From assembly GCF_026229185.1 (NCBI RefSeq), contig NZ_JAGGJA010000023.1, positions 1-40,556 on the forward strand: a stretch of DNA of 40,556 nt. Reading direction: 5' to 3'. The notes beneath the pieces are model-generated. The model made no database searches, was not told the DNA's origin, and saw nothing but the letters and a program-made list of their open reading frames with translations. Below, piece by piece: positions 13,903-38,850 of this stretch (position 1 is the first letter of the stretch; every line of letters starts with the position of its first letter). This DNA comes from Fodinibius salsisoli (GTDB taxonomy: Bacteria > Bacteroidota > Rhodothermia > Balneolales > Balneolaceae). The translations under genes and the position numbers were made by a program.

Positions 13903-14772
13903 CTATTTAGAAGGCCTATCACCATTAACTCGGTTCAAAACGTTCCAATCATTTAATACCTCCTGACAAGTACCAAAGGTAAAATTTTGGAGCAACATAT
14001 TTAATTTACCTTTAGTTGTACTTAGGCCGATATAACATTTAAACCGTCTATTCAAAGGCATTCGTACTCTCGGACAATCGGGAGCAAAATCTCTTGGATG
14101 GAGGTAGACCACACCTGGTATCTCCCTTTTTTCCAGTTGGTTAAAGCCATATTTAATGACGGATTTCGGCCAGAAACGCAAATATCCTCCACCGCTAAAT
14201 GGAATATTCATTGATCCAAATGATATCATACTCATTGGCAATTCAGCAAACCGAGTGTCAAAATATTCTTTGGAGAGAATCTGAGGACCTTGTTCAATGT
14301 CGTAGCCACCATGACCTCGCTGGGCAGGGAACAAACTGGCATCATATTCTATACCCATTTCACTCATTACTTCAAAGGCCCATTCATTTCCCTGTGTAAT
14401 TGAAAAAGAAGGTGCCCTATATCCTTTTATCTTGGAGCCGATTAAATCTTCCAACACCTCTACAGATTGTTTCAAATAATCATGAAACTGATCAGGCGAT
14501 AATGTGTTTACCCGGTAGTGCCAATAGCCATGGGTACCAATTTCGTGTCCTCGGGCGGCTATATCTCTTACAAGACTGGGATATTTCTGGGCAACCCATC
14601 CCAAAACAAAAAAAGTAGCCTTTACTCCATATCTATCTAAAATGTCTAAGATTAGATTTGTCTTGTCCTCAACAATGGAAGGATATTGCTCCCAATTTCC
14701 CCGCCGCTCAAGCTGAGGAAGCCCTGCTATATGGAACCAATCTTCAATATCAAACGATAAAGCGTGTTTCAA
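13903..14772 (-). CDS. polysaccharide deacetylase, DUF3473 type
   Basis: A 289-residue NodB-homology deacetylase of carbohydrate esterase family 4. Metal and catalytic residues are seen: D8/D11 (SFDIEDWFH), H81 and H85 (GTHGYWHYR), RAPSFS (119-124) and HPRDF (225-229). The C-terminal part (CPRVRMPLNRRFKCYIGLS) is the DUF3473 extension found in deacetylases of exosortase-linked and other exopolysaccharide loci. It probably removes an N-acetyl from the glycan or its lipid-linked precursor. The start is TTG (14772), since no ATG lies upstream in frame. It is the last gene of the long minus-strand run, 30 bases after the FemAB-like gene. Confidence 0.9.
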   Translation of the reverse strand: MKHALSFDIEDWFHIAGLPQLERRGNWEQYPSIVEDKTNLILDILDRYGVKATFFVLGWVAQKYPSLVRDIAARGHEIGTHGYWHYRVNTLSPDQFHDYLKQSVEVLEDLIGSKIKGYRAPSFSITQGNEWAFEVMSEMGIEYDASLFPAQRGHGGYDIEQGPQILSKEYFDTRFAELPMSMISFGSMNIPFSGGGYLRFWPKSVIKYGFNQLEKREIPGVVYLHPRDFAPDCPRVRMPLNRRFKCYIGLSTTKGKLNMLLQNFTFGTCQEVLNDWNVLNRVNGDRPSK

Positions 14773-20197: not shown

Positions 20198-21325
20198 TCA
20201 AAATATCAACTTAAAATTTGAATAAGTATTACTGCCATAAGTCAGAATGGCAACGAGCAAAGTCACAAGCAAATAGAAAACATAATATTTTTTTTCACCT
20301 ATTATATCCAATGAATTAATACTAGCAACTAAAGCAGGTAAATATGCTGTATACATAAATCTATATGAGAAAGGACTTATCCACACTAAAGCATAGATCA
20401 GGGATAATAAAAAAGTCAAACCCCAAATACTCATATTTGGTAATTTTTTTAATGGTAAACGAACCTTGGATTTTAGCAAATAAAAGTGAGATAGAAAAAA
20501 TATCAATATTACCAAAAAATAATATCTATATATCCATGATAGTATATCTTTTTCACTTGTAAGATACGTGTTTAATTTTGTTCCCAAACCAAATACACTG
20601 TCCATTAAAGGTATCTGAATACTCTTAAAAAAAGGGCTAAGAAAACTAGAAAAATCAATTAATTGCCATGTTACTATCAAGGCTCCAAAAATATAAGTAG
20701 CGTATCTAATTAGTTTTAATATTCTATCTTTGTCTAAGACTTTTTCCCAAAAATAATAGATAGGATAAAGCAAGGTAGATTTGTGACCTAATACAATAGC
20801 TAATGAAACTACCTTAGGAATTTTCCTTTTGTGAAATGCTAAAACAAAAATTAATAGTGCAACACATGATGATAGCCCCTGTCTTAAACCATTAGTGAGC
20901 ATATCAAAGCCTGGATAAAAACTTATATATACTAACAGTACTAATGACCTATTTTTTATGCCAATAATTGAGACAATGCCTAAGATAAGACATAATTGTA
21001 CCAAGACATTGCTTGCAATAAAAAAGTTCTTGCCCCCAATTTGTGAAATGGTAAAGGCAAAGCTATTGTAGAGGAAATCCCAAGAGTTCCTAAATGAGGA
21101 AGTTGCACCTATTTCTTGAAAATGATTTACATATTCAATAGTATCTGTTCCAGAGTACTGATCCCTTAACCCAAGAAATAAAAATGCAAAAAAAATTATC
21201 GCAGAGGATAACAAGTAATCAATTTTCTTATCCTTTATTACTACAATAGAAATAGATACCAATATCCATATTAAGAGATATGAAATGCCCGATATACTGA
21301 AAAGGAAATTTGCGATGTACTGCAA
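20198..21325 (-). CDS. EpsG-family (Wzy-type) polysaccharide polymerase
   Basis: A 375-residue membrane protein with about ten to eleven hydrophobic segments and the signature periplasmic motif RDQYSGTDTIEYVNHF near residues 54-69, which marks the EpsG/Wzy family. It probably polymerises repeat units on the outer face of the inner membrane after the flippase at 29678. No ATG is available in frame after the upstream stop; TTG at 21325 is the only reasonable start. It is strongly AT-rich. Confidence 0.87.
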   Translation of the reverse strand: MQYIANFLFSISGISYLLIWILVSISIVVIKDKKIDYLLSSAIIFFAFLFLGLRDQYSGTDTIEYVNHFQEIGATSSFRNSWDFLYNSFAFTISQIGGKNFFIASNVLVQLCLILGIVSIIGIKNRSLVLLVYISFYPGFDMLTNGLRQGLSSCVALLIFVLAFHKRKIPKVVSLAIVLGHKSTLLYPIYYFWEKVLDKDRILKLIRYATYIFGALIVTWQLIDFSSFLSPFFKSIQIPLMDSVFGLGTKLNTYLTSEKDILSWIYRYYFLVILIFFLSHFYLLKSKVRLPLKKLPNMSIWGLTFLLSLIYALVWISPFSYRFMYTAYLPALVASINSLDIIGEKKYYVFYLLVTLLVAILTYGSNTYSNFKLIF

Positions 21326-22655: not shown

Positions 22656-23621
22656 TTAAAATGCGTAAGAGTAACTGCTTATTTCTTCTAATAATTGGTT
22701 TTCCAAATCAGTTGCTGCATCAAAATTTATTTTTCGATTCTTTTCCTTATGCTCTAACCATTTTAGCCCCTTACGCTTAGCCAAAACTTCAGAAAATATT
22801 TCCTCCTCCGCATAATCAATACGCGATTTTACATGTATCAAACGAGACCTATGGCGTGCAAACGGTTCTGTTTGGTCTTTGCCTAAACCTCTTGGGTTTT
22901 CTTTATTCCACTCCACTAACGAAGCAATTTCTTGCAAATTTAGAGAAGGATTATCATTTGTTATAGGCATATGATGATAGTCAATATCAAACCAATCAGT
23001 TAATTTCTCATTTAAAATTTTTTCCACTCCTTTATCTTTTATTGAATCAAAATCTAACCAATCTACATTGTCAGAACCAAAAAAAGAATTGAGCTGGTCT
23101 TCTTTCATTTTAAAATTTAAATCCGGCAGAAAGTTTCTATCCTGAAAGGTAATAATCCATTTCAGAAATTCAGGATAAGCTTTATCATATCCCATCTTGA
23201 CATACTCACCATACATACTCCGAACAAAAGAGACGGGCTTACGTTTAATAACCAATATCTTGATCCTATGCTCTCCTGTAAGATATTTAATCCTGTCATA
23301 TTTTTCTTCATTTGAGATGCCCTGAAGAGTGAATTTGGTAGCAAAATGCTCACTTGAAAAAACAACTTTTCTACTTCCAGCTTCGCTTATAAAATTTTGA
23401 ATCGCTTGTTTGACTTTGTTCCTTTCTTTGAACCAGTAATGCTCGTTAGCATATTTTAACAACGACTCAAATCCTAATTCAAGAGAATCATTAGCATAAC
23501 TAATATTATTACCTATCCCTACACCTCCGAAATGCAGTTTCGGATGTTTTTCGAAATAGCTGCGCTGCAGAGTCGTGGAAAAACTTTTGGGATAACCGAT
23601 GTGCAAATAGACAGTAGCCAT
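22656..23621 (-). CDS. sulfotransferase-family protein
   Basis: A 321-residue P-loop sulfotransferase. The phosphosulfate loop is HIGYPKSFSTTLQ (7-19), where F-S-T-T replaces the more common G-T-T-L. The 3'-phosphate segment is ILVIKRKPVSFVRSMYGEY (122-140). The C-terminal half is charged and unassigned. It probably sulfates the glycan or an intermediate. It sits between the epimerase and the WecF-like gene in the cluster. A role other than sulfation is possible, given the altered loop. Confidence 0.8.
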   Translation of the reverse strand: MATVYLHIGYPKSFSTTLQRSYFEKHPKLHFGGVGIGNNISYANDSLELGFESLLKYANEHYWFKERNKVKQAIQNFISEAGSRKVVFSSEHFATKFTLQGISNEEKYDRIKYLTGEHRIKILVIKRKPVSFVRSMYGEYVKMGYDKAYPEFLKWIITFQDRNFLPDLNFKMKEDQLNSFFGSDNVDWLDFDSIKDKGVEKILNEKLTDWFDIDYHHMPITNDNPSLNLQEIASLVEWNKENPRGLGKDQTEPFARHRSRLIHVKSRIDYAEEEIFSEVLAKRKGLKWLEHKEKNRKINFDAATDLENQLLEEISSYSYAF

Positions 23622-23663: not shown

Positions 23664-24572
23664 TTATTTAATTCTTATATGATTCTTAAAATTCAAAAAA
23701 GATTTTTTGATTAAGGTCTCCTGCCCCTTATCTAAAAGCAATGATTTATGTAATGAATGACTATCAAATGAGAGATTTTGGTTTAAGTATATATATTCCA
23801 ACTCTGGAAGATTGTCTAAAAGTATTTGTTTAATTTGATTTAAATTGGAATTGAAATCCGCAATAGTTTTGGTTGTTTGGCTGGTTGAAAAATCTTCAAG
23901 CAAATCCACTAAATACATGCACAATGTATCAATATGAATAAATGGACGCATCTGCTTTCCGTTACCATAGATTTGAATTTTTTTATTCACAATACTTTCA
24001 AAGATAAAATTGTTAATCACTGCGTCAAGCCGGAAACAGAGGTTATAGCCAAAAATATTTCCGGATCGAATGACATTTATTTCACATTTTTCTGAAAGTG
24101 CCTTAACATATTTTTCTGCTTCATATTTTGATTTACTGTAGGCATTTTGCGGTTGAGGAACTGCTTCAGGACTAATCTCATGTCTGTTACCATAAACAGC
24201 AGAAGTGCTTAGAAAAATTATTTTTTTTACAGTTTCCACCCTTTTAATAGCATTTACCACATTTAGTGTCCCCCACTGGTTTATCTGCTCATATCGAAAA
24301 TTCTCTAAGTGATTTTTAGGGAAAGGTGTATGAGCTGCTAAATGGTAAACCACATCAATATTTTTGAGGATTTTTATAAGTTTGTCTGTATTAAGTATAT
24401 CCCCCTTTATAAAAGTAGTTTTATTTAACTTTTTTGAGCCCAGAAAAAAATTTGGATGCACCCGCGAGAGATTATCATAAACAATAACTTCGGATATATC
24501 TCCAAGCTCATTAAGATAGTTTGTTAACGAATAGCCTAAATAACCGGCCCCTCCTGTTACTAATACACGCAT
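23664..24572 (-). CDS. NAD-dependent sugar epimerase/dehydratase (extended SDR)
   Basis: A 302-residue extended SDR. NAD(P)-binding GGAGYLG at residues 7-13, acidic D33 after beta-2, LSTSAVYG at 121-128 and catalytic YSKSK (Y145, K149). This could be the nucleotide-sugar reductase or epimerase that completes the rfbC branch, because no rfbD is present; the substrate cannot be told from sequence. It follows cysH by nine bases, so it is part of the coupled run that includes comA, the phosphatase and the ATP-grasp ligase. Confidence 0.85.
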   Translation of the reverse strand: MRVLVTGGAGYLGYSLTNYLNELGDISEVIVYDNLSRVHPNFFLGSKKLNKTTFIKGDILNTDKLIKILKNIDVVYHLAAHTPFPKNHLENFRYEQINQWGTLNVVNAIKRVETVKKIIFLSTSAVYGNRHEISPEAVPQPQNAYSKSKYEAEKYVKALSEKCEINVIRSGNIFGYNLCFRLDAVINNFIFESIVNKKIQIYGNGKQMRPFIHIDTLCMYLVDLLEDFSTSQTTKTIADFNSNLNQIKQILLDNLPELEYIYLNQNLSFDSHSLHKSLLLDKGQETLIKKSFLNFKNHIRIK

Positions 24573-24581
24573 AATCTTGTT

Positions 24582-25232
24582 CTAAAGTTCTGTATGTAAA
24601 CCACATTCTGTCTTCTGCTGGCCATCCCAACGCCCTTCGCGAGTTGCTGCAACTCCGCGAGAAGTGCAGGGCACACATCCTATTGATGTATATCCTTTAT
24701 CTTCTAGTGGGTGCTTGGGTAGGTTAAAGGTATTAATATGGCGATAAATGTCGCGGGCTGTCCATTCGAGCATAGGATGAAATCGTATAATATCATTTTC
24801 TCTTTCTTCTATTTGCTTCATACCTTTTCTTACGGATGACTGATCCCTTCGTACACCGCTGATCCATACATCTCCTTTCTTAATCCATGTATTCAACGGT
24901 TTAACCTTATTCAAGTAACAGCAATAATCGGTATCGGACGAGTAATAATGAAGACCCTCATCGTTTTTTTGGAGGTGTAAAGAAGTTTCGGAACTAATTT
25001 CAACAACATTTAAATGAAGTAGCCTTGCCACATGCTCCTTGAACTTATATGTTTCAGGAAAAAGAAAACCTGTATTTATGAACACAATTGAAATCTCTGG
25101 GCAAACCTCAGATATTATATGCAGTAATGGTATACTCTGTGTTTGAAAAGAGGAAGTAGCAAATATTCTTCGGCCATTCTTTTGGAAATAATTTATTTTC
25201 TCTGATAATAAATCGACAGTATTATCATACAT
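24582..25232 (-). CDS. cysH: APS reductase-like CysH protein
   Basis: A 216-residue PP-loop reductase that would convert adenylyl sulfate to sulfite. Key features: PP-loop region ATSSFQTQS (25-33), the Cys-Cys pair C104/C105 and C186-V-P-C189, the four ligands of the [4Fe-4S] cluster found in APS-type enzymes, GVRRDQS (126-132), and the C-terminal catalytic ECGLH (C210 in 209-213). All expected residues are there. An assimilatory cysH is usually next to cysD/N or cysI/J; here it sits in a glycan cluster, 30 bases after the ATP-grasp gene. Its product sulfite is the substrate of ComA two genes upstream of that ligase. Local supply of sulfite for sulfolactate is the simplest reading (inference). 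Confidence 0.9.
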   Translation of the reverse strand: MYDNTVDLLSEKINYFQKNGRRIFATSSFQTQSIPLLHIISEVCPEISIVFINTGFLFPETYKFKEHVARLLHLNVVEISSETSLHLQKNDEGLHYYSSDTDYCCYLNKVKPLNTWIKKGDVWISGVRRDQSSVRKGMKQIEERENDIIRFHPMLEWTARDIYRHINTFNLPKHPLEDKGYTSIGCVPCTSRGVAATREGRWDGQQKTECGLHTEL

Positions 25233-25262
25233 TTTATTAACTATTATTTAAATAATTTATAT

Positions 25263-26450
25263 CTAGTTCCGATTCTGCAGATATTGTTGTGCAATATAAG
25301 GTATTGTTCGTTTGGAATGTTCCCAAAATACTCGAAGATCTCTGCCATAGAAAAATGCTTCCTGATTTGACTTCAAAAGATACTTGAATATGTTAAAAAA
25401 GCTTGTGTTTTTATTTAGCAATCTATTATGAAGCAAATCCATCCAGAAAAATTGCCAATATATTTCTTCCTTTTTTACAGGTTCAAAAGTTAAATTATTT
25501 TCAATTTCACCATGTAAATAGTCTAAACAAATTTGTGTAAGATTTACTCCTCTTGCGTTGTTTATCTGGTGCCAGCTCCATATTCTGGGGTTAATCTCAA
25601 TCAAAAAATACTTTCCTTTATATTCTTTAAACTCAATTTGGGCTATTCCTGTCAGTGATAGCTCTCTAAGCAAATCTTTGGCAGGCTTTACTAATTCAGG
25701 TTTATAAATTGTTTTTCCCAATGAACATTCTCCAGTCACTGGTGGAAATTGCCTCTCTTTTGTGCAGGTTGACCATGCAATGAGTTTGCCATCAAAACTA
25801 TAGGTCCCTATCGTACATAATTTATCATCTCCACCGGGTATATATTGCTGTACAATTCCTTCTTGATTAAGCGATTGTAACTGGTTAGCTGCTGATAAAA
25901 GCTCGTTTTTATTATCACAAATTTTTACACGGAATGCTTCTTTAACAACATTTATCTCTGGAGTCTTTTTAATGGCAGGTTTTATAATAATAGGAAATTC
26001 ACTTGCATTTATTTTTGAAACTTCAGCCATCTTATATGATTTAGGAGCTGATACCCCAATAGATTGGGCGAGTTTATTCACTTTTGATTTGTTCAAAGCA
26101 TATTCTAATAATTTGTAATCGGTTTCAAAACTGTACTGGTAATATTCTTTAAGTCTATTATAATACTTGGCAAAAAATAATAAATAGTCATCGTCGCCGG
26201 TAAAAATTACCGGTTTCGATTCTCGATAATTCATTTTTTCGGCAGCTTGAATTAAAACCTCTATAAATTTTTCATCGCTAACCGCAGTTATTTCAGGTAT
26301 GACAAAAAAATCTTTCAGATATTTTGACTTACTTACGGGCGTTCTCCATGTATCTGCTCCATAAATTTCATACCCACTATCTTTTACGGATCGTATCACA
26401 CCATAGCCAGTTCTTCTGCAATGAATCACGAAAATCTTCTTCAATTCCAT
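25263..26450 (-). CDS. ATP-grasp carboxylate-amine ligase
   Basis: A 395-residue ATP-grasp protein. ATP-binding elements: FPIIIKPA (about 152-159), QQYIPGG (about 201-207), QIEFK (about 271-275) and the metal-binding IEINPR (284-289). Its N-terminal preATP-grasp domain resembles those of carbamoyl-phosphate-synthase-like ligases. It would join a carboxylate to an amine through an acyl phosphate. Its ATG overlaps the phosphatase stop as TGATG, so it is made together with comA and the phosphatase. The carboxylate is probably sulfolactate, and the amine may be the 4-amino sugar made by the VioA-like protein. Both assignments are inference; the sequence only gives the class. Confidence 0.8.
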   Translation of the reverse strand: MELKKIFVIHCRRTGYGVIRSVKDSGYEIYGADTWRTPVSKSKYLKDFFVIPEITAVSDEKFIEVLIQAAEKMNYRESKPVIFTGDDDYLLFFAKYYNRLKEYYQYSFETDYKLLEYALNKSKVNKLAQSIGVSAPKSYKMAEVSKINASEFPIIIKPAIKKTPEINVVKEAFRVKICDNKNELLSAANQLQSLNQEGIVQQYIPGGDDKLCTIGTYSFDGKLIAWSTCTKERQFPPVTGECSLGKTIYKPELVKPAKDLLRELSLTGIAQIEFKEYKGKYFLIEINPRIWSWHQINNARGVNLTQICLDYLHGEIENNLTFEPVKKEEIYWQFFWMDLLHNRLLNKNTSFFNIFKYLLKSNQEAFFYGRDLRVFWEHSKRTIPYIAQQYLQNRN

Positions 26451-26977
26451 CAAATATTAACTCGAGTTAAATGGTTATTTGGGATTTCAATGTGATTTAA
26501 ACGGTCAATATCATTATATCGATATTGAGCCAATATATATCTACTTACAAAACCATGCGAAAATAATAATACGTTTTCCAAAGACTTTTTTTCATCTATA
26601 AAGGCATCCACACGCATTTTAAACTCATCAAACTGCTCTCCTAATTTTAGTTTTTCTACATTATCATACCATATTGAACTAATATCAGCAAGCATTTCAC
26701 TCTTTGGCCTACCTTCATATTTTCCAAAATCAAATTCGATAACGCGATTATCGGTAGTCGGAGTTTGGAATCCATATTCTTTAGCTGTACTAACAGTTCG
26801 TTTAAGAGGTGATGAAAAACATTTTGTAATAGGTACTTTGTTTAATCTTTTTTTCGTCTTATTTATTCTTTTTGACGTCTTCTGATCAACTTTTTTTATC
26901 GGAATATCTTTACGACCCTGTAGCCTCCCTTCTTTATTCCAGGTAGTTGGCAAATGACGAATTAAATACAGTTCCAT
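26450..26977 (-). CDS. histidine phosphatase (candidate phosphosulfolactate phosphatase)
   Basis: A 175-residue histidine-acid-phosphatase/phosphoglycerate-mutase-like protein. Motifs: LIRHLPTTWN (phospho-acceptor H8, with R7), SPLKRTVSTA (R60), VIEFDFGKYEG (E81) and FSHGFVSRY (H141). The GTG at 26980 is also possible, but the ATG at 26977 overlaps the comA stop as TGATG. In coenzyme M synthesis the phosphosulfolactate made by ComA is dephosphorylated by ComB, which belongs to another family. No comB-like gene is here, and this enzyme stands in its place, so a non-homologous replacement of ComB is likely (inference). Confidence 0.85.
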   Translation of the reverse strand: MELYLIRHLPTTWNKEGRLQGRKDIPIKKVDQKTSKRINKTKKRLNKVPITKCFSSPLKRTVSTAKEYGFQTPTTDNRVIEFDFGKYEGRPKSEMLADISSIWYDNVEKLKLGEQFDEFKMRVDAFIDEKKSLENVLLFSHGFVSRYILAQYRYNDIDRLNHIEIPNNHLTRVNI

Positions 26978-27735
26978 CACGAGTTAATTTTAAATGTTTC
27001 TGACCGCAAACCAACTCTTTCCGCCTCAAGCAATAAAATATCATGGGGATTAACATTACCCAAATTAACATTACTGCCAATTAAATTAATCAAAAACATT
27101 TGCGAATCACCTGTCGGGGCTTCTAAAATTAAATTTGCAGGATCAATAGTGTGTATAATATCATCAATTAAGTCTGTCCGCAGCTCCCCGTTTGGCCCAA
27201 ATAATCCGGCTGTCCCAGAATTTCTCCCTTCCGTTATTACATATTTAGCCCCCTCTTTCAGCAGTATTTCAATTTCGTTAATCCATTCACTGGGTGGCAT
27301 CGTTTTCTGCTTATCCTTACTTCCAACTTCACAAAGAACATCAATGTCACTTCCAGTAAAAAAAGAGATAAGATCTTTTCTCTCACTTAAACTTAAATCG
27401 ATAGTACCATTAGAAATTTCTACAAAATCTATTTCATATTTTAACAATATATCTTTGAGGTTGGTCAGCCTATTTTGAAAATGAAATTTTTCAAACAATG
27501 TTCCTCCAAAGTAAACTTTAATATCAAATTTATGATACAGTGAAATTTTTTCCTCCAAATTGGGAGATACAGCTGCAATACCAACTCCTAATTTTGCTAT
27601 ATCTACATAATCACTATAATCATTCAAGATCATTTCCAATTCTCTTGTAGATAAACCAACATCCATAATAGATGTTAACCCTTTCTTTCTTGGTTTTTTT
27701 GTTCTATAAGGTACTTCAAGTCGATTAATAAACAT
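26977..27735 (-). CDS. comA: phosphosulfolactate synthase
   Basis: A 252-residue TIM-barrel enzyme of the ComA family that adds sulfite to phosphoenolpyruvate, giving (R)-2-phospho-3-sulfolactate. Family blocks occur in order: KPRKKGLTSIMD (14-25), DIAKLGVGIA (45-54), VYFGGTLFE (74-82), VEISNGTIDLSLSERKDLI (105-123), VLCEVGSK (133-140), VITEGRNSGTAG (166-177), LILEAPTGDSQ (202-212) and NLGNVNPHDILLLEAERVGLR (224-244). The length is typical. Known bacterial and archaeal relatives serve coenzyme M synthesis or spore sulfolactate. Finding it inside a surface-glycan cluster, coupled to a phosphatase and ligase and near an APS reductase, is unexpected. Its stop overlaps the phosphatase start. Confidence 0.92.
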   Translation of the reverse strand: MFINRLEVPYRTKKPRKKGLTSIMDVGLSTRELEMILNDYSDYVDIAKLGVGIAAVSPNLEEKISLYHKFDIKVYFGGTLFEKFHFQNRLTNLKDILLKYEIDFVEISNGTIDLSLSERKDLISFFTGSDIDVLCEVGSKDKQKTMPPSEWINEIEILLKEGAKYVITEGRNSGTAGLFGPNGELRTDLIDDIIHTIDPANLILEAPTGDSQMFLINLIGSNVNLGNVNPHDILLLEAERVGLRSETFKINS

Positions 27736-27873: not shown

Positions 27874-28965
27874 TTACAATAAAACTTTTGTTAAACTTTC
27901 TTTAATAGTTGTAATTATCTTTGTTTGATCGGTCTCTTTTAAATCATGGAACAAAGGTAAACATAAAATCCTTTTAGAAATATCAACTGAAATGTCTGTT
28001 TCATTGGACCTTACATAATCAAGCTCACATAAACTCGGATAAAAATATCGTCTTGAATATATGTCTTCTTCTTCTAATCTTTTTTTTACGCTCAATGCTG
28101 TTTGTTCATTTTTGAAAATGACTGGATAATAAGCATAATTATATACTGTTTCTGGCTTTACCTGTTGTGTTTTGACTGTTAAATCATTCAGCAATGATTC
28201 ATAGACATAACTCTGCTTTTTTCTTCGCTCTAATACATTGTCAATGTATTTCAAGTTACAAATACCCATTGCTGCATGAAATTCTGAGTTTTTGCCATTG
28301 ATGCCTATCCCATCGAAATGCCCGGGTCCGGCATGACCAAAATTGCGCATCTGCTGAATTTTTTGGTTAAGCGCAGGATCCTTTGTTATTACTGCCCCCC
28401 CTTCTACCGTATGAAATAGTTTCGTGGCATGAAAACTGGCCGTGCTGATATCTCCGTAGTTATAGACCGACTCTCCTTTATATTTCGTTCCAAAACAATG
28501 CGCCGCATCATAGATAACTTTCAAACTATGTCTATCAGCTATTTGCTGTATCGTATCAATATCACAAGGATTGCCAAAAACGTGAGTAGCTAAAATACCA
28601 GAAGTTTTATTGGTAATGGCCTCTTCTATCAGTGCCGGATTTATATTTAGCGTATCCGGATCAATATCCACAAACACCGGCTCGCCCCCCTCCCAGACAA
28701 TACTGCTGGTGGTAGCGACATAAGAAAAAGGAGTAGTAATAACTTCTCCTTCAAGCTCCAATGCTTTAATGGCAATTTGCAGAGCAATGGTCCCATTGGA
28801 TACCAAATTTAGGTACGGCACATCCAGATAATCTTCCAACTCATTTTCAAGTTGTTGCACCAAAGGCCCATTATTGGTCAGCCAATTACGTTCCCAAACA
28901 TCATCCAGCAAGGCTACATACTCTTCCCTGGGCGGCAAAAACGGTTTTGTTACGGGAATACTCAC
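27874..28965 (-). CDS. dTDP-4-amino-4,6-dideoxyhexose transaminase (VioA/WecE-like)
   Basis: A 363-residue PLP aminotransferase of the DegT/DnrJ family. Motifs: VTKPFLPPREEY (5-16), WLTNNGPL (28-35), TTPFSYVATT (77-86), IYDAAHCFGT (151-160) and SFHATKLFHTVEGG with the PLP lysine K182. The N-terminal FLPP...WLTNNGP pattern is what I recall for VioA, which makes dTDP-Qui4N; WecE (Fuc4N) starts differently. It would use dTDP-4-keto-6-deoxyglucose from rfbB. GTG start (28965) overlapping the preceding stop as GTGA. The product gives a free 4-amino group that must be acylated before transfer by a WecF-like enzyme. Confidence 0.87.
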   Translation of the reverse strand: MSIPVTKPFLPPREEYVALLDDVWERNWLTNNGPLVQQLENELEDYLDVPYLNLVSNGTIALQIAIKALELEGEVITTPFSYVATTSSIVWEGGEPVFVDIDPDTLNINPALIEEAITNKTSGILATHVFGNPCDIDTIQQIADRHSLKVIYDAAHCFGTKYKGESVYNYGDISTASFHATKLFHTVEGGAVITKDPALNQKIQQMRNFGHAGPGHFDGIGINGKNSEFHAAMGICNLKYIDNVLERRKKQSYVYESLLNDLTVKTQQVKPETVYNYAYYPVIFKNEQTALSVKKRLEEEDIYSRRYFYPSLCELDYVRSNETDISVDISKRILCLPLFHDLKETDQTKIITTIKESLTKVLL

Positions 28966-29681
28966 TGTTTCACCTCTTTAGTCTTATTTTTCCATGGAAA
29001 ATCCTGCCACTCACTTTTCACATCTAAGAAATCACAGAGTTTTTGGTAGGAACCATCATTCGCGACATTTAGTACTAATAAATCATCCGGCCGATGACGA
29101 AAATAGTCTCTCACATTTTTGTTGTGTCGTTTATAGCTTTCGATTAGTATATCTTTATTATATAAATCATCTATTGGGGTATTGAAATGTATTCGATTTT
29201 TCTCCCATCTATAACCCTTATAAAACTTTGTATCATTTATAAGGTCTTCTTTATTAGGAATTCGTCCATCCTTTCCCCATAGTTTAGCATGAAATTTAAT
29301 TAGCGAATTGTACCACTGTTCTGGATTATCACGAACTGTTAATATAAACTTACTGTTTGGAAATTCATGATCTAACACAATAAATGTAAATGGCTTGCTA
29401 AATGGATTATCCTGAAAAAATTGTCCATATTTACAATATTTTATCAAACTTTCAAAATCCCTTTGCCCCCAATCTCTGGTATATTGGATATCAGTTATTT
29501 GGTCACCCACGACAAATCCTAACCTCTCCATCGCTGCTTCCAAAGAAGTAGTTCCTGTTTTATTATTTCCTATACCAAATACTTTCTGCCTACCAATAGA
29601 CTGGAAACGGGATATACTTTTTTTAACCCTTCCTTTTACTCTTTTCAACAATTTATCCTTAATTATTTCAATCATATTCAC
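28962..29681 (-). CDS. sulfotransferase-family protein
   Basis: A 239-residue P-loop protein of the sulfotransferase family. GIGNNKTGTTSLEAAMERLGF (36-56) is the phosphosulfate loop and the following helix. FILTVRDNPEQWYNSL (112-127) corresponds to the 3'-phosphate site. The N-terminal 30 residues are basic. GTG at 29681 overlaps the flippase stop; ATG at 29675 is equally possible. Its stop overlaps the VioA-like start. This subgroup of short sulfotransferases is functionally vague. Role in glycan sulfation is inferred from the neighbours. Confidence 0.78.
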   Translation of the reverse strand: MNMIEIIKDKLLKRVKGRVKKSISRFQSIGRQKVFGIGNNKTGTTSLEAAMERLGFVVGDQITDIQYTRDWGQRDFESLIKYCKYGQFFQDNPFSKPFTFIVLDHEFPNSKFILTVRDNPEQWYNSLIKFHAKLWGKDGRIPNKEDLINDTKFYKGYRWEKNRIHFNTPIDDLYNKDILIESYKRHNKNVRDYFRHRPDDLLVLNVANDGSYQKLCDFLDVKSEWQDFPWKNKTKEVKQ

Positions 29682-31120
29682 TTAGAAATAAACTCTTTTA
29701 CCGTATTGATCGAATACTGCATAATTTCCCTTTCAAATTGGTATAACAAACTGAGATAAACAATGACCCCGGTTACGGTACCAACAATAAGTGTTAGTAG
29801 ATCTCCAAGGGCTAAGTAAGAGGTAATTCCCCACATGGCCCCTCCCATTAAAGCTGAGAGAAACAAAAAACACCATATATCCTGTATCTGTTCAAACACT
29901 CCATATGCAATAAACTTACCACTGTAATAACTATTTATAAAATAAGACAAAAGCGATTGGAATACTCTGAATATCACCAGCGCTATAACCGAGTACTGCA
30001 CAAAAATAAGAATACCCAAAACAGCAATTCCTTTTTTAACTAACCCCACATACAAAAATAGATCACTTCGGCCTTTTACCTTAAGAATATTCAAATTATA
30101 TGCGCTAGCCGGATAAAACAACCCGCTAATACAAAGCCACTGAAAATAGGGTACCGCCGGCAACCACTTTTCGGTTAGCACAAAGCGAAAAAGAGGCTCC
30201 GCTAAAACAATAGCTCCTACCATTATCGGTGCAATAACCAAGAAGAGTTGTCTGACGATTTTTTTATAAGCCCGTTTTAATCGCATATCGTCAGTCTGAA
30301 TTTCAGACAGTATGGGAAAAGTAACTCGTCTCAGTGCATTTGATATATTTTGCACCGGCAATTGTTTAATTTTATTAGCTTGGGTATAAAAGCCTACCTG
30401 AGCTGTTGAAAAATAACGACCAATCATTACTTCATAAAAATTCGTATATATCCTACTCAAAACTCCTTCAATCATTATTTTACTACCAAAATCAAAAAGC
30501 TCTTTCACCCGCTGCCAATCAAAAACCAAGATCGGTCGCCATTTCGACTGTATCCATATCTGAATAGAGTATGCTGTAGAATCTGTTAATTGTTGAATAA
30601 TCAGGCTCCAAACGCCAAGCCCCCCATAAGCGGCTCCTATGCCGGCGGCTCCGCCCAGCAGCGTGGAAGGCAGCTTGGCCATCATCAGTTTTTTAAATTG
30701 TACCTCTTTAGTCAGCCGTGCAATTTGGACCATCGAAAAGGCGGCAATAATAAACTTTAGACCCAAGACCCGGATGAGATTAATCAGAATGGATTCACCA
30801 TAAAAAGAAGCAATCAGTGGAGCCGTGACAAAAAGCAAACCATAAATAACTATACTTACAATCAGGTTAATATAAAATACTGAAGAGTAGTCAATTTCAT
30901 CGGTCTCTTTTTTCTGTATCAGAGCCTGTCCAAATCCGCTGTCCGTCAGGCTTTGGCTGACGGCAATAAATACCGCCAGCATGCCCATCAATCCGAACGC
31001 TTCCGGCGCAATCTTGCGGGCTAATACGATAAAGACAACCATCTGTAGCAACTGAACGCCAAAGCGTTCTCCAAAGGCCCAAATAAAACCGGATAACGTT
31101 TTATCCGTGAGTGAGGCCAT
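29678..31120 (-). CDS. Wzx-type lipopolysaccharide/polysaccharide flippase
   Basis: A 480-residue MOP-superfamily exporter (WzxC/polysaccharide_synt type) with about 12-14 membrane segments. It opens with TLSGFIWAFGERFGVQLLQMVVFIVLARKIAPEAFGL, typical of the family. It carries the lipid-linked repeat unit across the inner membrane before polymerisation by the EpsG-like protein. By eye its 5' part (30600-31120) is visibly more GC-rich than its 3' part and the genes that follow, as if a recombination boundary lay inside the gene. Confidence 0.9.
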   Translation of the reverse strand: MASLTDKTLSGFIWAFGERFGVQLLQMVVFIVLARKIAPEAFGLMGMLAVFIAVSQSLTDSGFGQALIQKKETDEIDYSSVFYINLIVSIVIYGLLFVTAPLIASFYGESILINLIRVLGLKFIIAAFSMVQIARLTKEVQFKKLMMAKLPSTLLGGAAGIGAAYGGLGVWSLIIQQLTDSTAYSIQIWIQSKWRPILVFDWQRVKELFDFGSKIMIEGVLSRIYTNFYEVMIGRYFSTAQVGFYTQANKIKQLPVQNISNALRRVTFPILSEIQTDDMRLKRAYKKIVRQLFLVIAPIMVGAIVLAEPLFRFVLTEKWLPAVPYFQWLCISGLFYPASAYNLNILKVKGRSDLFLYVGLVKKGIAVLGILIFVQYSVIALVIFRVFQSLLSYFINSYYSGKFIAYGVFEQIQDIWCFLFLSALMGGAMWGITSYLALGDLLTLIVGTVTGVIVYLSLLYQFEREIMQYSINTVKEFISK

Positions 31121-31197: not shown

Positions 31198-31734
31198 TCA
31201 ATAGCATTGATATGCTTTAAAAGTACCCAATTGTTTATCCTTATTTGATACTATTGGATTTTCAATAGGCCATTTGATATCTAAGTTTGAGTCATTCCAG
31301 ACTATTCCTCCTTCATCATTGGAATGATAAAACTCCGTGCATTTATAATTAAAGTCTGCCACCTTGCTTAGCACACAAAAACCATGAGCAAAACCGGGTG
31401 GAATATACATTTGCAGGTGGTTTTGATCACTCAATTCGTTCCCATACCATTTACCAAATGTCTCGGACTCAGGACGAATATCCACAGCTACATCAAAAAC
31501 CTTTCCCTGCCGAACACTTACCAGCTTACCTTGTGGATACTTTTTCTGAAAATGAAGCCCACGCAATACCCCCTTCGTAGATCGAGACCAATTGTCTTGC
31601 ACAAATTCTTCCTCAATACCTATATTTTTATAACGTTGTTGCTGCCACGTTTCCAGGAAAAAGCCGCGATCATCTTCATATACATCAGGCTGAATTACTA
31701 ATAATCCCGGCAGTGGTTCTTTGATAACTTTCAT
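31198..31734 (-). CDS. rfbC: dTDP-4-dehydrorhamnose 3,5-epimerase
   Basis: A 178-residue cupin-fold epimerase. The catalytic base is H61 in VLRGLHFQ (56-63), followed by PQGKLVSVRQGKVFDVAVDIR and IPPGFAHGFCVLS (111-123), the standard RmlC blocks. The length is normal. It acts on dTDP-4-keto-6-deoxyglucose from rfbB. The rhamnose pathway needs rfbD next, which is not in the window, so either it lies elsewhere, the SDR at 23664 replaces it, or another 6-deoxyhexose is made. The order is rfbB, rfbA, rfbC, all on the minus strand. Confidence 0.93.
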   Translation of the reverse strand: MKVIKEPLPGLLVIQPDVYEDDRGFFLETWQQQRYKNIGIEEEFVQDNWSRSTKGVLRGLHFQKKYPQGKLVSVRQGKVFDVAVDIRPESETFGKWYGNELSDQNHLQMYIPPGFAHGFCVLSKVADFNYKCTEFYHSNDEGGIVWNDSNLDIKWPIENPIVSNKDKQLGTFKAYQCY

Positions 31735-31778
31735 GTTTTTTGTCTAAGGTCTTTAAGTCTAAGGTCACAGATCCAAAA

Positions 31779-32681
<903 letters not shown>

Positions 32682-32744
32682 GGTTTGGTTATTCGTTAAT
32701 TGTTATTGGTTATCGGCAAACAATAGTACGACCCTTTATTTTGA

Positions 32745-33815
32745 TCATTCAGCTGTTCCAAGTCGTTCGAGACTATAATTATTCTCCGTTACTGCTTCGC
32801 ACCAATCGATATTATCCAGATACCACTGTACGGTTTTCTTAATACCACTTTCAAACGTTTCTTCAGGTTTCCAGCCAAGTTCTTCTTCTATCTTGGATGC
32901 ATCAATAGCATATCGGAAATCGTGTCCGGGGCGGTCAGTAACAAAGGTAATTTGGTCTTCGTAGTGTCCGGTAGCTTTGGGTCGTAGTTCATCCAGTATC
33001 GAACAGATCTCTTTTACCACTTCAATATTCTGTTTTTCGTTATGACCGCCGATATTATAGGTTTCACCAATTTCACCTTCTTGGGCGACCTTAAATAACG
33101 CACGGGCATGATCATCTACATACAGCCAGTCGCGTACATTGGTTCCATCACCATATACGGGGATATCTTCTCCCTGCAGGGCTTTCAAGATAACGACTGG
33201 GATGAGTTTTTCAGGAAATTGGTAGGGGCCATAGTTATTGGAACAATTCGTAATGAGTACAGGAAAGTCATAAGTATGAAACCAGGCCCGGGCTAAGTGA
33301 TCGGAAGATGCTTTACTGGCCGAATAAGGAGACCTGGGATCATAGGAGGTCGTTTCTTTAAAGAATCCCTCGTTACCAAGCTCTCCATAAACTTCATCGG
33401 TAGAGACATGCAGGAAGCGAAATATTTCTTTTCTTTCGCCCTCCAAAGACTCATAGTAATCTTTGGCGAGCTCCAGCAAGTTATGCGTTCCAACAATATT
33501 TGTTCTGATAAACTCTGCTGAACCGTCAATAGAGCGATCAACATGCGATTCTGCAGCCAAATGTATTACTGTATCGGGTTGATATTCATCAAATAAGCGT
33601 TGTATTTCCTCTTTATCACAGATATCGCCCTGCACAAAATGATAGCGATCAGAATCTGTAATCGGTTCCAGACTTTCCAGGTGTCCGGCATAGGTAAGTT
33701 TATCAACATTTATTACAGTATGGTCTGTTTCCCGAATTAGATATCGAACCAGTGCAGAACCGATAAATCCCGCCCCTCCGGTGACAAAAACTGTTTCAGA
33801 TTTGTTGCTACGCAA
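32745..33815 (-). CDS. rfbB: dTDP-glucose 4,6-dehydratase
   Basis: A 356-residue extended SDR producing dTDP-4-keto-6-deoxyglucose. TGGAGFIGS (12-20), [12 protein letters not shown] (85-96), STDEVYG (138-144) and the catalytic Y164/K168 in YSASK are all seen. No ATG lies between the upstream in-frame stop and the Rossmann motif, so the TTG at 33815 is the probable start. It is the first gene of the polysaccharide operon; two overlapping palindromes lie 37-54 bases upstream of the start. Confidence 0.94.
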
Positions 33816-34291: not shown

Positions 34292-36388
34292 TCACAAAAA
34301 CCAGAGACTCCGGCGGGCATACGGCGGCAGCGTATCAACCTTAAAATAGGGCAACATCTGTGCCACCATCTCTGGGTATTTTATCGTCACCGGCAGGCTC
34401 TGCTGGTCGGCCGACTTCCAGTAGATACGGCTGAACTGATAGATCTGTCGCACCACGCGCTCCACCTCTTCCTCTTTGTGCATGAACCCACGGATATCTG
34501 ACTTTATATATACCTTTACCGGAAACGGATAATCCCGCGGCTTGCCGTTCCGTCCCGGGTACCGCGTATTATTACATAACAACAGCCGGTGATGGTCCAG
34601 GCGGAGATAAGTACCGCTGTATGGCATCTTCTCTTGCCAGCCCGCATCAAATACCACCGTATCAAACGAAGGCGTCTTGTTGATCGTCACGATCACAATA
34701 TCCACATCATCCAGCCCCAGGTTATCCAGGGTCCGCTCAATAGGACGCCGTTCCCGCCTGCTCATCTGTTTATAATAATGGATGACCAGCCGCTCAGGCT
34801 TGCCGTGTTTGTCCACATAACGGTGTACGGCATCGCGGATCGATCCGGCCAGCATATTCGTCTGTTCTTTTTCAAAGCATTGCACGCCTTTAAACCGTCC
34901 GCTGTTGTCAAAGCAAAAGGCACTGCCTACATACTGGCGATCCTTGTCACGGGGACGAAAAGCCCCCACACCTACAATAAGCTCGTCCCGTTCGGGCACG
35001 TCCAGCTTCCAGGGTACCCCGCCCAGCTTGGCCAATACTGCGGGAGCGATATTGCGCATATGAAATTTAAAATACTTATCCCTGATGTTATGGCTATGGA
35101 TATTTTGCATACCGATCCCCCGCTTCAGCAACTCTTCCTTAAGCCGGTAATAGGGGCGCTGGTCGCGTGGCCCCTGCTTTTCTTCGGGAATGGGATTCAC
35201 GTAGATAGCCAGCAGCTGCCGATCGTCGGGAAAGGTGCCATTGGTCAGCCGCTGCATAATGTCCGGCAAAGGGTTATGGATATCCCGAAACAACACATCT
35301 TCCCCATAATATTTTATGGGCGTATTGATATAGCGGCTCAAACTTTTAAAATCCTCGGTTCCTTCTATCAGCGCTTTTTTGAGCGCCCGGCCGTCACCGC
35401 CCTCCCGGGCATCCTCTTCGGCCATAATAAAAAAGATACCACAGGGCTGGTCCGGGGCCCGATAGCCGCCGTGTTTCCAGATGCCTGTCTTTGGTTCTAT
35501 GGCTTTGCGGTCGCCCCGAAATACCAGTTTCCGGGAAGCAGCCTCAAGCCGATGGATGCGATGTTGCTGTGGCCGGTACCACCCCTCTTCAGTAAGGTCA
35601 AAAAGCTGGTTAAAATCCTCATGTGCGGTTAGTCGTTTGCGGATCCGTTCCAACTGTCCGTAATAATCTTTCATCTTGTTCGACACATAGCGGTGCGGCA
35701 TAGAGATGCCCAGATGAGCAGCAATCTGCCGATTTAACACGGGATATACTTCCTCGTGGTCCAGATCGGTATCCTCAGAAAGATCCTCATACCGGCCGTT
35801 TTGTCCCTTATACACCACCCAGTTGATATCCGACGGATCTCCATGATAATCGAGCATACTATCCTTACCGACATACCGATGGCCCCGCACGTTGATCAAC
35901 AGTTCTCCGAGTGCGGGTTGTCCATCATCACGGCCGGTGTATTTGCCGATGCTCACCCGCAGCTCAAACTGTCGATAGGCTTTCCACCCCTGATGGTCGT
36001 ATTTTTCATCCCGCAACCACAGCACATTGTTATGGATAAAATTGCGTTCCCGTATATCCGCCAGTTCTCCGAGTATTTTAAAAAGACGGTAGCCCAGGTA
36101 TCCACCGGCAAAGCGAGGCACCTTTTCCAGATCGATCGTCAGCTCCAGACTTGCCTTGCCTGTGGTTAAAAAGTCCGTATATATAAAGGGATCTTCTGTC
36201 CGGGGTGTTACTTCTTCCGGCCATTCGCTTTTATGAAGCGGGGCCATCGGACGGTCTGGGTTATCCCCATAATAGAAATCGAAGGTAACCTCCGTGTCCG
36301 GTGGATGAAAAGTGAGGATATTCATCCGAAGCTGCTGCCCCGTCTGCTGTTTCTTTCGTAACGCTGATCGTGGTTGTTGTACTTCCAA
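34292..36388 (-). CDS. ago: long prokaryotic Argonaute, nuclease site lost
   Basis: A 698-residue protein with the long-pAgo layout: N domain (about 22-110), linker and PAZ-like region (200-370), MID (about 375-465) and PIWI (468-698). MID shows Y413...K417, GIGMQ (Q428) and AKLGG (K454), matching the Y-K-Q-K pocket for a guide 5' phosphate. The catalytic DEDX tetrad is not kept. Where the first Asp should be there is IVGVGAF (G475), and the next is replaced in LVIHYYKQ (about Y539). The last position reads KYPEMVA (P672/E673). The C-terminus ends in the usual hydrophobic RSLWFL. It should bind guide and target without cutting, as known for 'long-B' pAgos, which work with an effector protein. 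TTG at 36388 has an AGGGAGG site just upstream; ATG at 36325 is the alternative start. Confidence 0.85.
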   Translation of the reverse strand: MEVQQPRSALRKKQQTGQQLRMNILTFHPPDTEVTFDFYYGDNPDRPMAPLHKSEWPEEVTPRTEDPFIYTDFLTTGKASLELTIDLEKVPRFAGGYLGYRLFKILGELADIRERNFIHNNVLWLRDEKYDHQGWKAYRQFELRVSIGKYTGRDDGQPALGELLINVRGHRYVGKDSMLDYHGDPSDINWVVYKGQNGRYEDLSEDTDLDHEEVYPVLNRQIAAHLGISMPHRYVSNKMKDYYGQLERIRKRLTAHEDFNQLFDLTEEGWYRPQQHRIHRLEAASRKLVFRGDRKAIEPKTGIWKHGGYRAPDQPCGIFFIMAEEDAREGGDGRALKKALIEGTEDFKSLSRYINTPIKYYGEDVLFRDIHNPLPDIMQRLTNGTFPDDRQLLAIYVNPIPEEKQGPRDQRPYYRLKEELLKRGIGMQNIHSHNIRDKYFKFHMRNIAPAVLAKLGGVPWKLDVPERDELIVGVGAFRPRDKDRQYVGSAFCFDNSGRFKGVQCFEKEQTNMLAGSIRDAVHRYVDKHGKPERLVIHYYKQMSRRERRPIERTLDNLGLDDVDIVIVTINKTPSFDTVVFDAGWQEKMPYSGTYLRLDHHRLLLCNNTRYPGRNGKPRDYPFPVKVYIKSDIRGFMHKEEEVERVVRQIYQFSRIYWKSADQQSLPVTIKYPEMVAQMLPYFKVDTLPPYARRSLWFL

Positions 36389-37450: not shown

Positions 37451-37472
37451 GCGAGATAAATCTCGCCCTACA
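37451..37472 (+). repeat. variable-stem palindrome with CTACA tail
   Basis: GCGAGAT-AA-ATCTCGC followed by CCTACA, the covarying counterpart of 6727-6749. It partly covers the 3' end of the HTH gene (stop at 37468). Confidence 0.65.
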
Positions 37473-38850
37473 TCTCGGTATGCTTCTCCAGAAACCGCTT
37501 CAAATCCTCCTCATGATACCACACATTTTGTTTTAGTCGCAGCCTCTTGATCGGTTTTTCTGCCATATCCAGGTATTTCTTCAGGGTCTTGTGGTTTATC
37601 CCCATAGCTATTTCCACCTCCTGCTTATGTACATAGGTTTCCTGGAAAAATTTAACAAACGCACTGATCTCATTCTCAGCCGCACCGTTCCCCGCCGCTC
37701 CGTAGCTTACCTCTTCATCTTCTGACGTTCCAATAGATAACTTCTCTGAATCCATTAGCTGTTCAACCAGTAGCACCCACCGTCCGGCCTCCGACATGGG
37801 GTACTCCCCTCCGCTTCTATGATGGCTCAAATGCAGATCAAACCAGGAACGCACTTCAATCAGTTGCTGAAATCGTTGATGGATGGCCTTATCGTCTTCT
37901 CCGGCTACAAGGTTGGTAATCATCTGCCTTACCCATTCCCGGCAAAAATCAGCTTCACAGAGACGTTCCGGATGTCTCTCTAAAAAAGACGTCTCCATCT
38001 TCCACAAAAACAGCGCATTTTCCAGGTGATGGAATAATGCTGCCAATGTACGAAAGTCCGTTGTTTCCCCTCCCATAGCTGAAAGCCTGTTATCTATTTC
38101 ATCCATTACGTCCGTTATACCGGAGATCAACGGTTCATCCGCCCCTTCTGTTGTAGCCAGTTTGTGTAAATAATGATTGGACTGCTGCCTGTGCCATATC
38201 ACCGTTGGCCGGTGAGGGGAAGGATCGGGCGGACGTCGGTCAAGCAGTTCCAGATAGATATCAGCTTCAGAATAGACCTGTTTATTAAAGGCCGGATAGC
38301 GTTTCTGAAGATCCAGCAACAGGTTGGCGAGGCGCAGGCTTACGACCTCCATGACAAATTTGGATATCGGATTTTCTTTCTCCTCCGGATGGTACCTAAT
38401 GCGTTGCCTAATGGAGGAGATATCCAGCAAAAGGTTCTGAAGGTCACCCCGGACTACCGCATAGTGGTACTTCTGGTCCTCTGTTTCACCCCTTGATTCA
38501 ATAGATTCGATAGCCGAGCCATACCACTTAGAAAGATATTCTGCGATATATTTCTCATAGGCCCGTGCGATGCGACCTTCCGGTTCGGGCGTATCTACTT
38601 CGCTCAATAAGGGAGGTTGCGAGTGCTTTTTAACAGGCCGGCGGTCCCTCCGGCCTTCCATAAACCGAGTGGTGCCCTCCCTGGTCCAGGGGCGCCAGGA
38701 TCCGTACAGAAGTTGCGGAAGCAGGTGGTCTTTCTTTTTATCCATCTCTTTTGTCAAGTCTAACATTATGCGGTTATCTGAGATATGCGCATCTTTTCTT
38801 AAAAACTTATACAAATGTGATAGCAAATAGTGACAATTGCAACTTTCCAT
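37468..38850 (-). CDS. uncharacterised protein with C-terminal helix-turn-helix
   Basis: A 460-residue protein that I do not recognise over most of its length. The C-terminal 65 residues (about 395-460) read as a MerR/excisionase-like helix-turn-helix: VHKQEVEIAMGINHKTLKKYL, then a basic LRLKQNVWYHEEDLKRFLEKH wing. Residues 80-330 are helical and charged, with no obvious catalytic motif. Similar C-termini occur in Bacteroidota mobile-element regulators. ATG 38850 gives the full frame; an internal ATG at residue 29 (LDLTKEM) would drop a Cys/His-containing leader. An 11-bp iteron-like array sits directly upstream (38946-39020), a possible binding site. It may be an initiator or regulator of an integrated element, but this is inference. 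Confidence 0.65.
   Translation of the reverse strand: MESCNCHYLLSHLYKFLRKDAHISDNRIMLDLTKEMDKKKDHLLPQLLYGSWRPWTREGTTRFMEGRRDRRPVKKHSQPPLLSEVDTPEPEGRIARAYEKYIAEYLSKWYGSAIESIESRGETEDQKYHYAVVRGDLQNLLLDISSIRQRIRYHPEEKENPISKFVMEVVSLRLANLLLDLQKRYPAFNKQVYSEADIYLELLDRRPPDPSPHRPTVIWHRQQSNHYLHKLATTEGADEPLISGITDVMDEIDNRLSAMGGETTDFRTLAALFHHLENALFLWKMETSFLERHPERLCEADFCREWVRQMITNLVAGEDDKAIHQRFQQLIEVRSWFDLHLSHHRSGGEYPMSEAGRWVLLVEQLMDSEKLSIGTSEDEEVSYGAAGNGAAENEISAFVKFFQETYVHKQEVEIAMGINHKTLKKYLDMAEKPIKRLRLKQNVWYHEEDLKRFLEKHTEM

Follow-up and report, generated by a model that had tools for sequence, protein, structure and literature searches.

A possible sulfolactyl-glycan tailoring cassette with a ComA homologue in a polysaccharide cluster of Fodinibius salsisoli

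Phosphosulfolactate synthase (ComA) is known from coenzyme M biosynthesis and from the sulfolactate of Bacillus subtilis spores. In the latter, yitCD is paired with yitBA-yisZ for sulfolactate, and a ComA with its own sulfate-reduction operon has been deduced for the spores (PMC517825). Here, I describe four genes of Fodinibius salsisoli (Bacteroidota, Balneolaceae) at positions 24,582 to 27,735 of contig NZ_JAGGJA010000023.1, the window being the whole stretch of 40,556 nucleotides that was analysed. They encode, in this order on the minus strand, a ComA homologue, a histidine phosphatase, an ATP-grasp enzyme and CysH, and may form a sulfolactyl-glycan tailoring cassette within an acquired cluster for surface polysaccharide; this is the leading reading of the locus, and a tentative one.

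According to this reading, CysH would make sulfite, which the ComA homologue would add to phosphoenolpyruvate (PEP) to give 2-phospho-3-sulfolactate; the histidine phosphatase, in place of ComB, would release sulfolactate, and the ATP-grasp enzyme would activate its carboxyl and couple the acid to an amine of the glycan or of a precursor, the amine coming either from a DegT aminotransferase or from a polysaccharide deacetylase. Every chemical step in this organism I infer, as I do the acceptor and the amide bond. A deacetylated amino sugar would be an acceptor equally as good as the aminotransferase product, and the cluster in the window has a deacetylase too.

The original prediction had named four neighbouring minus-strand genes with two TGATG overlaps and a family for each gene; the former is borne out by open reading frame (ORF) coordinates and sequence, the latter by Pfam matches (Table 1). 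Stop and start codons overlap as TGATG both between comA and the phosphatase gene (CTCGTGATGGAA) and between the phosphatase and ATP-grasp genes (TTTGATGGAA); 30 bases separate the ATP-grasp gene from cysH, and 9 bases separate cysH from the gene of a sugar short-chain dehydrogenase/reductase (SDR). That the cassette lies inside a Wzx/Wzy-type polysaccharide cluster was likewise correctly foreseen, as Pfam finds there both a Wzx flippase and an EpsG-family polymerase. The same facts bear on the notion that the product is free sulfolactate, an osmolyte or an excreted compound rather than a glycan substituent. Sulfolactate does make up about 5% of B. subtilis spores by dry weight, according to PMC517825, yet the overlap with the ATP-grasp gene, the site within the Wzx/EpsG cluster and the presence in this genome of another, ordinary ComA (on contig 39) make a free product very unlikely here.

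Support for a pathway comes from elsewhere in the phylum, from which the genome samples were drawn; gene neighbourhoods were inspected for fetched loci, many of them with a flank of 1.5 kb. In one phylum genome (G369), a polysaccharide cluster contains a distant ComA with two ATP-grasp genes directly after it, and PF02679 occurs in nine of the 98 genomes of its order, G369 included. All nine of these parallel loci have ATP-grasp matches no more than 8 kb from comA, six have a polysaccharide deacetylase within the same distance, and six have a Wzx within 10 kb. Seven are visibly polysaccharide clusters, with glycosyltransferase or deacetylase matches; L150 and L152 are short contigs on which the flanking genes are ATP-grasp, GNAT and others only. 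In five of the nine (L150-L154) comA is directly followed by comB, called by PF04029 in the three loci scanned and by tblastn with the L151 comB, which matches in the other four; the L153 comB is split over two frames. The ComA of these five loci retain K140 and K209 (window numbering), those of the remaining four, which give no comB match, have neither lysine, and, the parallel-locus sequences being related, this association (five of five against none of four) does not represent nine independent events. Elsewhere, e.g. at positions 45, 108 and 244, the comB-locus ComA departs from the reference set. An Ldh_2 gene of L151 has L-sulfolactate dehydrogenase as its best NCBIfam model, under the cut-off.

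By comparison, no ATP-grasp match within 8 kb was found at any of 19 ordinary ComA loci (among them L168-L170, with a 3 kb flank, the second copy in G244, L084, and a Legionella locus, L137) or at any of eight loci of a second ComA class described below. The comA-comB-ATP-grasp arrangement in another order, set beside its absence from the ordinary loci, indicates that the succession comA, phosphatase, ATP-grasp recurs. To this extent the predicted cassette in surface-polysaccharide clusters stands; its cysH and aminotransferase partners do not recur, for the expected link with a 4-amino-sugar aminotransferase fails in all nine parallel loci (no match within 8 kb). The window phosphatase gives no match in the nine loci either. 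It is conceivable, if doubtful, that at least two distant orders separately built cluster-borne sulfolactate pathways, with comB or a histidine phosphatase as the partner of comA, and ATP-grasp attachment of the acid as N-sulfolactyl. As their ComA keeps K140 and K209, the parallel comA-comB-ATP-grasp clusters may even lend themselves better to testing than the window does. In L150, L151 and L153 a methyltransferase-like gene lies ahead of comA, and an AMP-binding ligase is encoded upstream in L151 and L153 (PF00501 in L153); the acid may therefore be modified or activated differently in the parallel clusters.

The points that weigh against a sulfolactyl glycan concern the ComA homologue, its partner enzymes and the rarity of the cassette. 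The greatest weakness is the window ComA itself. It spans positions 2-242 of the 243 of PF02679 (249.9 bits, cut-off 25.2) and can be aligned with the solved ComA 1U83 and 1QWG, further solved ComA entries being 24FO, 24GZ and 9CM1; it falls below the cut-off of the equivalog NCBIfam model TIGR03849 (211.7 bits versus 280), but so does the ordinary ComA of the genome (252.7 bits), so that this archaeal model is not decisive. At 58 positions, 20 or more of the 22 reference ComA rows agree; the window ComA keeps 51 of these and departs at seven. Residue 172 is N, with E in 63 of 63 other distinct ComA sequences, and residue 209 is G, with K in 62 of the 63; identical sequences and the window were left out of this comparison, and the ComA of the parallel order and of the second class lie beyond its E-value limit. 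In the tree, the window ComA sits on a long branch beside Bacteroidota-type ComA and falls in none of the marked sets. The near-invariant strand-end residues K140, E136, E169, R171, E205 and N227 are retained, and K140 aligns with K137 of MjComA, presumably the general acid. Residues 172 and 209 come directly after the strand-end motifs EGR and EAP, hence by topology they likely are at the active-site face; single-sequence structure prediction (mean pLDDT 45.9 for ComA and 35.2 for the ATP-grasp enzyme) was too poor for placing N172 and G209. The "full ComA" of the original prediction is thus full in length and altered at seven of the 58 positions, including E to N172 and K to G209; as for PEP- and sulfite-binding residues, E172 and K209 are lost and K140 is kept, the binding role being deduced from the position in the chain.

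The replacement of E172 and K209 and the long branch would also suit a ComA homologue with a changed or lost reaction, in which case the ATP-grasp enzyme would fix to the glycan some other acid made from a phosphorylated three-carbon precursor. Along the same line, ComA appears to drift in polysaccharide settings, as seen in the four parallel loci without comB and lysines and in the still more divergent genes of genus g103, and the cassette phosphatase is closest to CobC/PGM-like enzymes. The adjoining cysH points to sulfite, however, and K140 is retained with most conserved positions, hence I regard an altered reaction as somewhat unlikely. Genus g103 is a third lineage, with comA-like genes in four of 11 matching genomes (class sample of 294); no ATP-grasp match was found in six g103 stretches, though the comA-like genes are in or near polysaccharide genes, which counts against the sulfolactyl-glycan reading. 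In L200 and L202, DegT-like matches occur near these genes; L201 has Wzx and deacetylase matches, and the comA-like ORFs of L204 and L205 are short. Strongly diverged ComA-like genes occur in pairs in L200, L202 and L203, in the midst of polysaccharide and chitinase-like genes.

The cassette phosphatase belongs to branch 1 of the histidine phosphatases and matches PF00300 only, not the ComB family PF04029. One PF04029 gene is encoded elsewhere in the genome (contig 4), so that a second phosphatase would not be strictly needed; PF04029 is also present in 14 of 15 order-mates from other families, which show no PF02679 match, hence possession of a ComB-family gene does not imply sulfolactate here. 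The ATP-grasp enzyme just passes its Pfam cut-offs (PF15632, 29.4 bits versus 29.1; PF02655, 23.3 versus 23.2), and PRK12767-type models for it fall under theirs. It does not group with the ATP-grasps beside comA-comB, in a grouping that left out ORFs under about 280 aa, clipped by contig ends; if both the window and the parallel order make sulfolactyl glycans, their ATP-grasps would thus have been recruited separately.

ComA matches are absent from all 19 loci fetched for the ATP-grasp gene, so that such ATP-grasp genes are common without ComA, and relatives of the phosphatase lie between glycosyltransferases, again without ComA, in three plasmid loci of Sulfitobacter, Ruegeria and Azospirillum. 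These observations, together with the sulfotransferase families of the cluster, would fit a locus with no single pathway, in which the phosphatase and the ATP-grasp enzyme perform ordinary glycan tailoring, and comA and cysH are passengers of the island or a sulfur supply for sulfotransferases. Such an assembly by chance neighbourhood is unlikely in view of the two translational overlaps and of the comA-comB-ATP-grasp loci in the other order. Moreover, reduction of (phospho)adenosine phosphosulfate, (P)APS, uses up the donor that sulfotransferases need, which argues against cysH as their supplier.

The predicted set of APS-reductase cysteines in cysH is present (CC, CxxC and a C-terminal ECGLH), yet the enzyme may reduce either APS or PAPS: it exceeds the cut-off of NCBIfam NF002537/PRK02090, named PAPS reductase (212.3 bits versus 154), and stays under that of TIGR02055 APS_reductase (155.6 versus 235.3). 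PF01507 matches four genes of the genome, in the window and on contigs 43, 39 and 22. The neighbours of the contig-43 gene read, from the sequence, as sulfite reductase, SUMT and siroheme genes; the contig-39 gene has a counterpart of similar length and score in all eight genus genomes searched, and the contig-22 match, a 308-residue frame, is taken for cysD. The window cysH shares 42% identity with its contig-39 and 34% with its contig-43 counterpart; it is an extra copy, the third CysH-type gene of the genome. Given the B. subtilis precedent, in which a sulfate-reduction operon is dedicated to the ComA, the cysH neighbour would most simply be read as a sign that the window ComA uses sulfite; YitB of that precedent I take to be a CysH-type reductase. 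One could also imagine that the adjoining SDR makes a sulfoquinovose-type sugar, supplied by CysH, comA being incidental. This is extremely unlikely: the SDR gene does start 9 bases after cysH and its product weakly matches NF041015, but at 52.1 bits against a cut-off of 575 and with the GalE and RmlB models scoring higher, and a UDP-sulfoquinovose synthase was accordingly rejected.

As to rarity, the four-gene set, cysH included, was seen only once among the fetched loci, in the window itself; the window cysH gives no match in the nine parallel loci. The window ComA has a match in 87 of 92 family genomes (its own included), none besides the window more than 49% identical, and in 96 of 394 sampled phylum genomes, at most 48% identical besides the window. 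The top-scoring match to the window ATP-grasp, itself aside, has 29% identity both in 195 class genomes (short partial matches reach 32%) and in the 394 phylum genomes (E up to 1e-15). Searches by exact short peptides, which distant relatives escape, gave no ATP-grasp relative and one archaeal ComA, 31% identical (L081), in genome contigs, and no cassette relatives in viral contigs. ComA matches occur in 31 plasmid records, all less than 60% identical to the window. The seven of these loci inspected comprise a ComA-ComB pair in Legionella, MmgE/PrpD neighbours in three and a shared lyase-type gene run in three, with no cassette in their annotation; no ComA is annotated beside the ATP-grasp in two inspected of 62 plasmid records, or beside phosphatase relatives in three inspected of 198. 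In the order of G405, ComA was dismissed, since PF02679 is found in none of 98 genomes and the earlier weak matches were due to chance.

Other observations concern further ComA lineages. Downstream of the ordinary ComA of the family (L082 9893-11570 and related loci) lies a half-length gene with a starch-synthase domain (PF08323), present at 62 of 66 short ComA loci, a set in which some places occur twice; a branching-enzyme gene is also present in all five long-flank family ComA loci. The second, divergent "ComA" class (class 2) lies near annotated MmgE/PrpD genes on haloarchaeal and Paracoccus plasmids (L138, L139, L140), and the gene preceding a class-2 ComA in L083 (8316-10571) resembles MmgE/PrpD by reading. 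Class 2 has no lysine at position 140, which makes its annotation as phosphosulfolactate synthase doubtful.

The cluster around the cassette (Table 1) further holds glycosyltransferases, two DegT-family genes, two Pfam sulfotransferases and a FemAB-type protein. GC content is 28-37% at 14-30 kb of the window versus 40-52% in the remaining bins, as expected for an acquired island. The tabulated DegT aminotransferase scores 256 bits against TIGR04427 DesI (cut-off 650), and the deacetylase just misses the cut-off of the XrtA model. The protein encoded at 22656-23621 (minus strand) starts like a sulfotransferase by eye, with no Pfam or NCBIfam match. Beside the cluster, a prokaryotic Argonaute is encoded at 34292-36388 (minus strand; PADLOC pAgo PDLC02385, 652 bits over almost the entire length); PADLOC gives no match for the large ORF that follows, 37468-38850.

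Table 1. Cassette genes and selected neighbours in the window
Feature	Position	Strand	Length (aa)	Family match
comA homologue (phosphosulfolactate synthase family)	26977..27735	-	252	PF02679, E 3.2e-74
Histidine phosphatase, proposed ComB stand-in	26450..26980	-	176	PF00300, E 1.5e-31
ATP-grasp enzyme, proposed carboxyl-amine ligase	25263..26453	-	396	PF15632 and PF02655
cysH, (P)APS reductase	24582..25232	-	216	PF01507, E 9.4e-38
Sugar SDR, epimerase/dehydratase-like (context)	23664..24572	-		PF01370, E 1.1e-37; best NCBIfam models GalE and RmlB, both below cut-off
DegT aminotransferase, possible acceptor-amine source (context)	27874..28965	-		PF01041, E 3.3e-93
Sulfotransferase-like (context)	28962..29681	-		PF17784, E 2.6e-24
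Wzx-type flippase (context)	29678..31120	-		PF13440, E 1.5e-95
EpsG-family polymerase (context)	20198..21325	-		PF14897, E 5.6e-16
rmlC, rmlA, rmlB, dTDP-sugar genes (context)	31198..33815	-		TIGR01221, TIGR01207, TIGR01181, each above cut-off
Polysaccharide deacetylase, alternative acceptor-amine source (context)	13903..14772	-		TIGR03006, 274.2 bits (cut-off 276.2)

Carbon-bound sulfonates are rare on glycans beside sulfate esters. Bacterial glycans are known to bear acylated amino sugars, in which a small hydroxy acid is joined by an amide to the amino sugar; unlike in those, the acyl group proposed here is sulfonated, and neither such a group nor a published sulfolactyl glycan was found in the searches made of open-licence PMC papers, in agreement with the original prediction, which knew of no such system. 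Should the sulfolactyl-glycan reading be true, N-sulfolactyl groups would define an undescribed class of glycan with carbon-bound sulfonate, the amide-linked sulfonic acid would confer a lasting negative charge resistant to sulfatases, ComA would serve for more than coenzyme M and the sulfolactate of spores, and sulfonate-degrading microbes would find in such glycans a supply of sulfolactate.

Among the systems with which the cassette can be compared, a locus of Priestia megaterium plasmid pBM600 encodes an enzyme of the same broad ATP-grasp family, 27% identical, and a deacetylase that could free an amine; unlike the cassette, no ComA, CysH or histidine phosphatase is annotated in that stretch. 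A PIG-L deacetylase, a GT4 glycosyltransferase and the ATP-grasp are there encoded in a row (L176 7022-10152), which looks like a logic of deacetylation followed by acylation. Spores of B. megaterium have no sulfolactate, according to PMC517825. The yitCD/yitBA-yisZ genes of B. subtilis share with the window a ComA (YitC, solved as 1U83) accompanied by dedicated sulfate reduction, in their case an operon, but their product is the free sulfolactate of spores, and neither an ATP-grasp enzyme nor a glycan cluster is mentioned in the accessible text (PMC517825). Like coenzyme M biosynthesis (ComA, ComB, ComC), the cassette would combine PEP with sulfite and then remove the phosphate; unlike it, the cassette has no PF04029 comB and carries a histidine phosphatase gene in its place.

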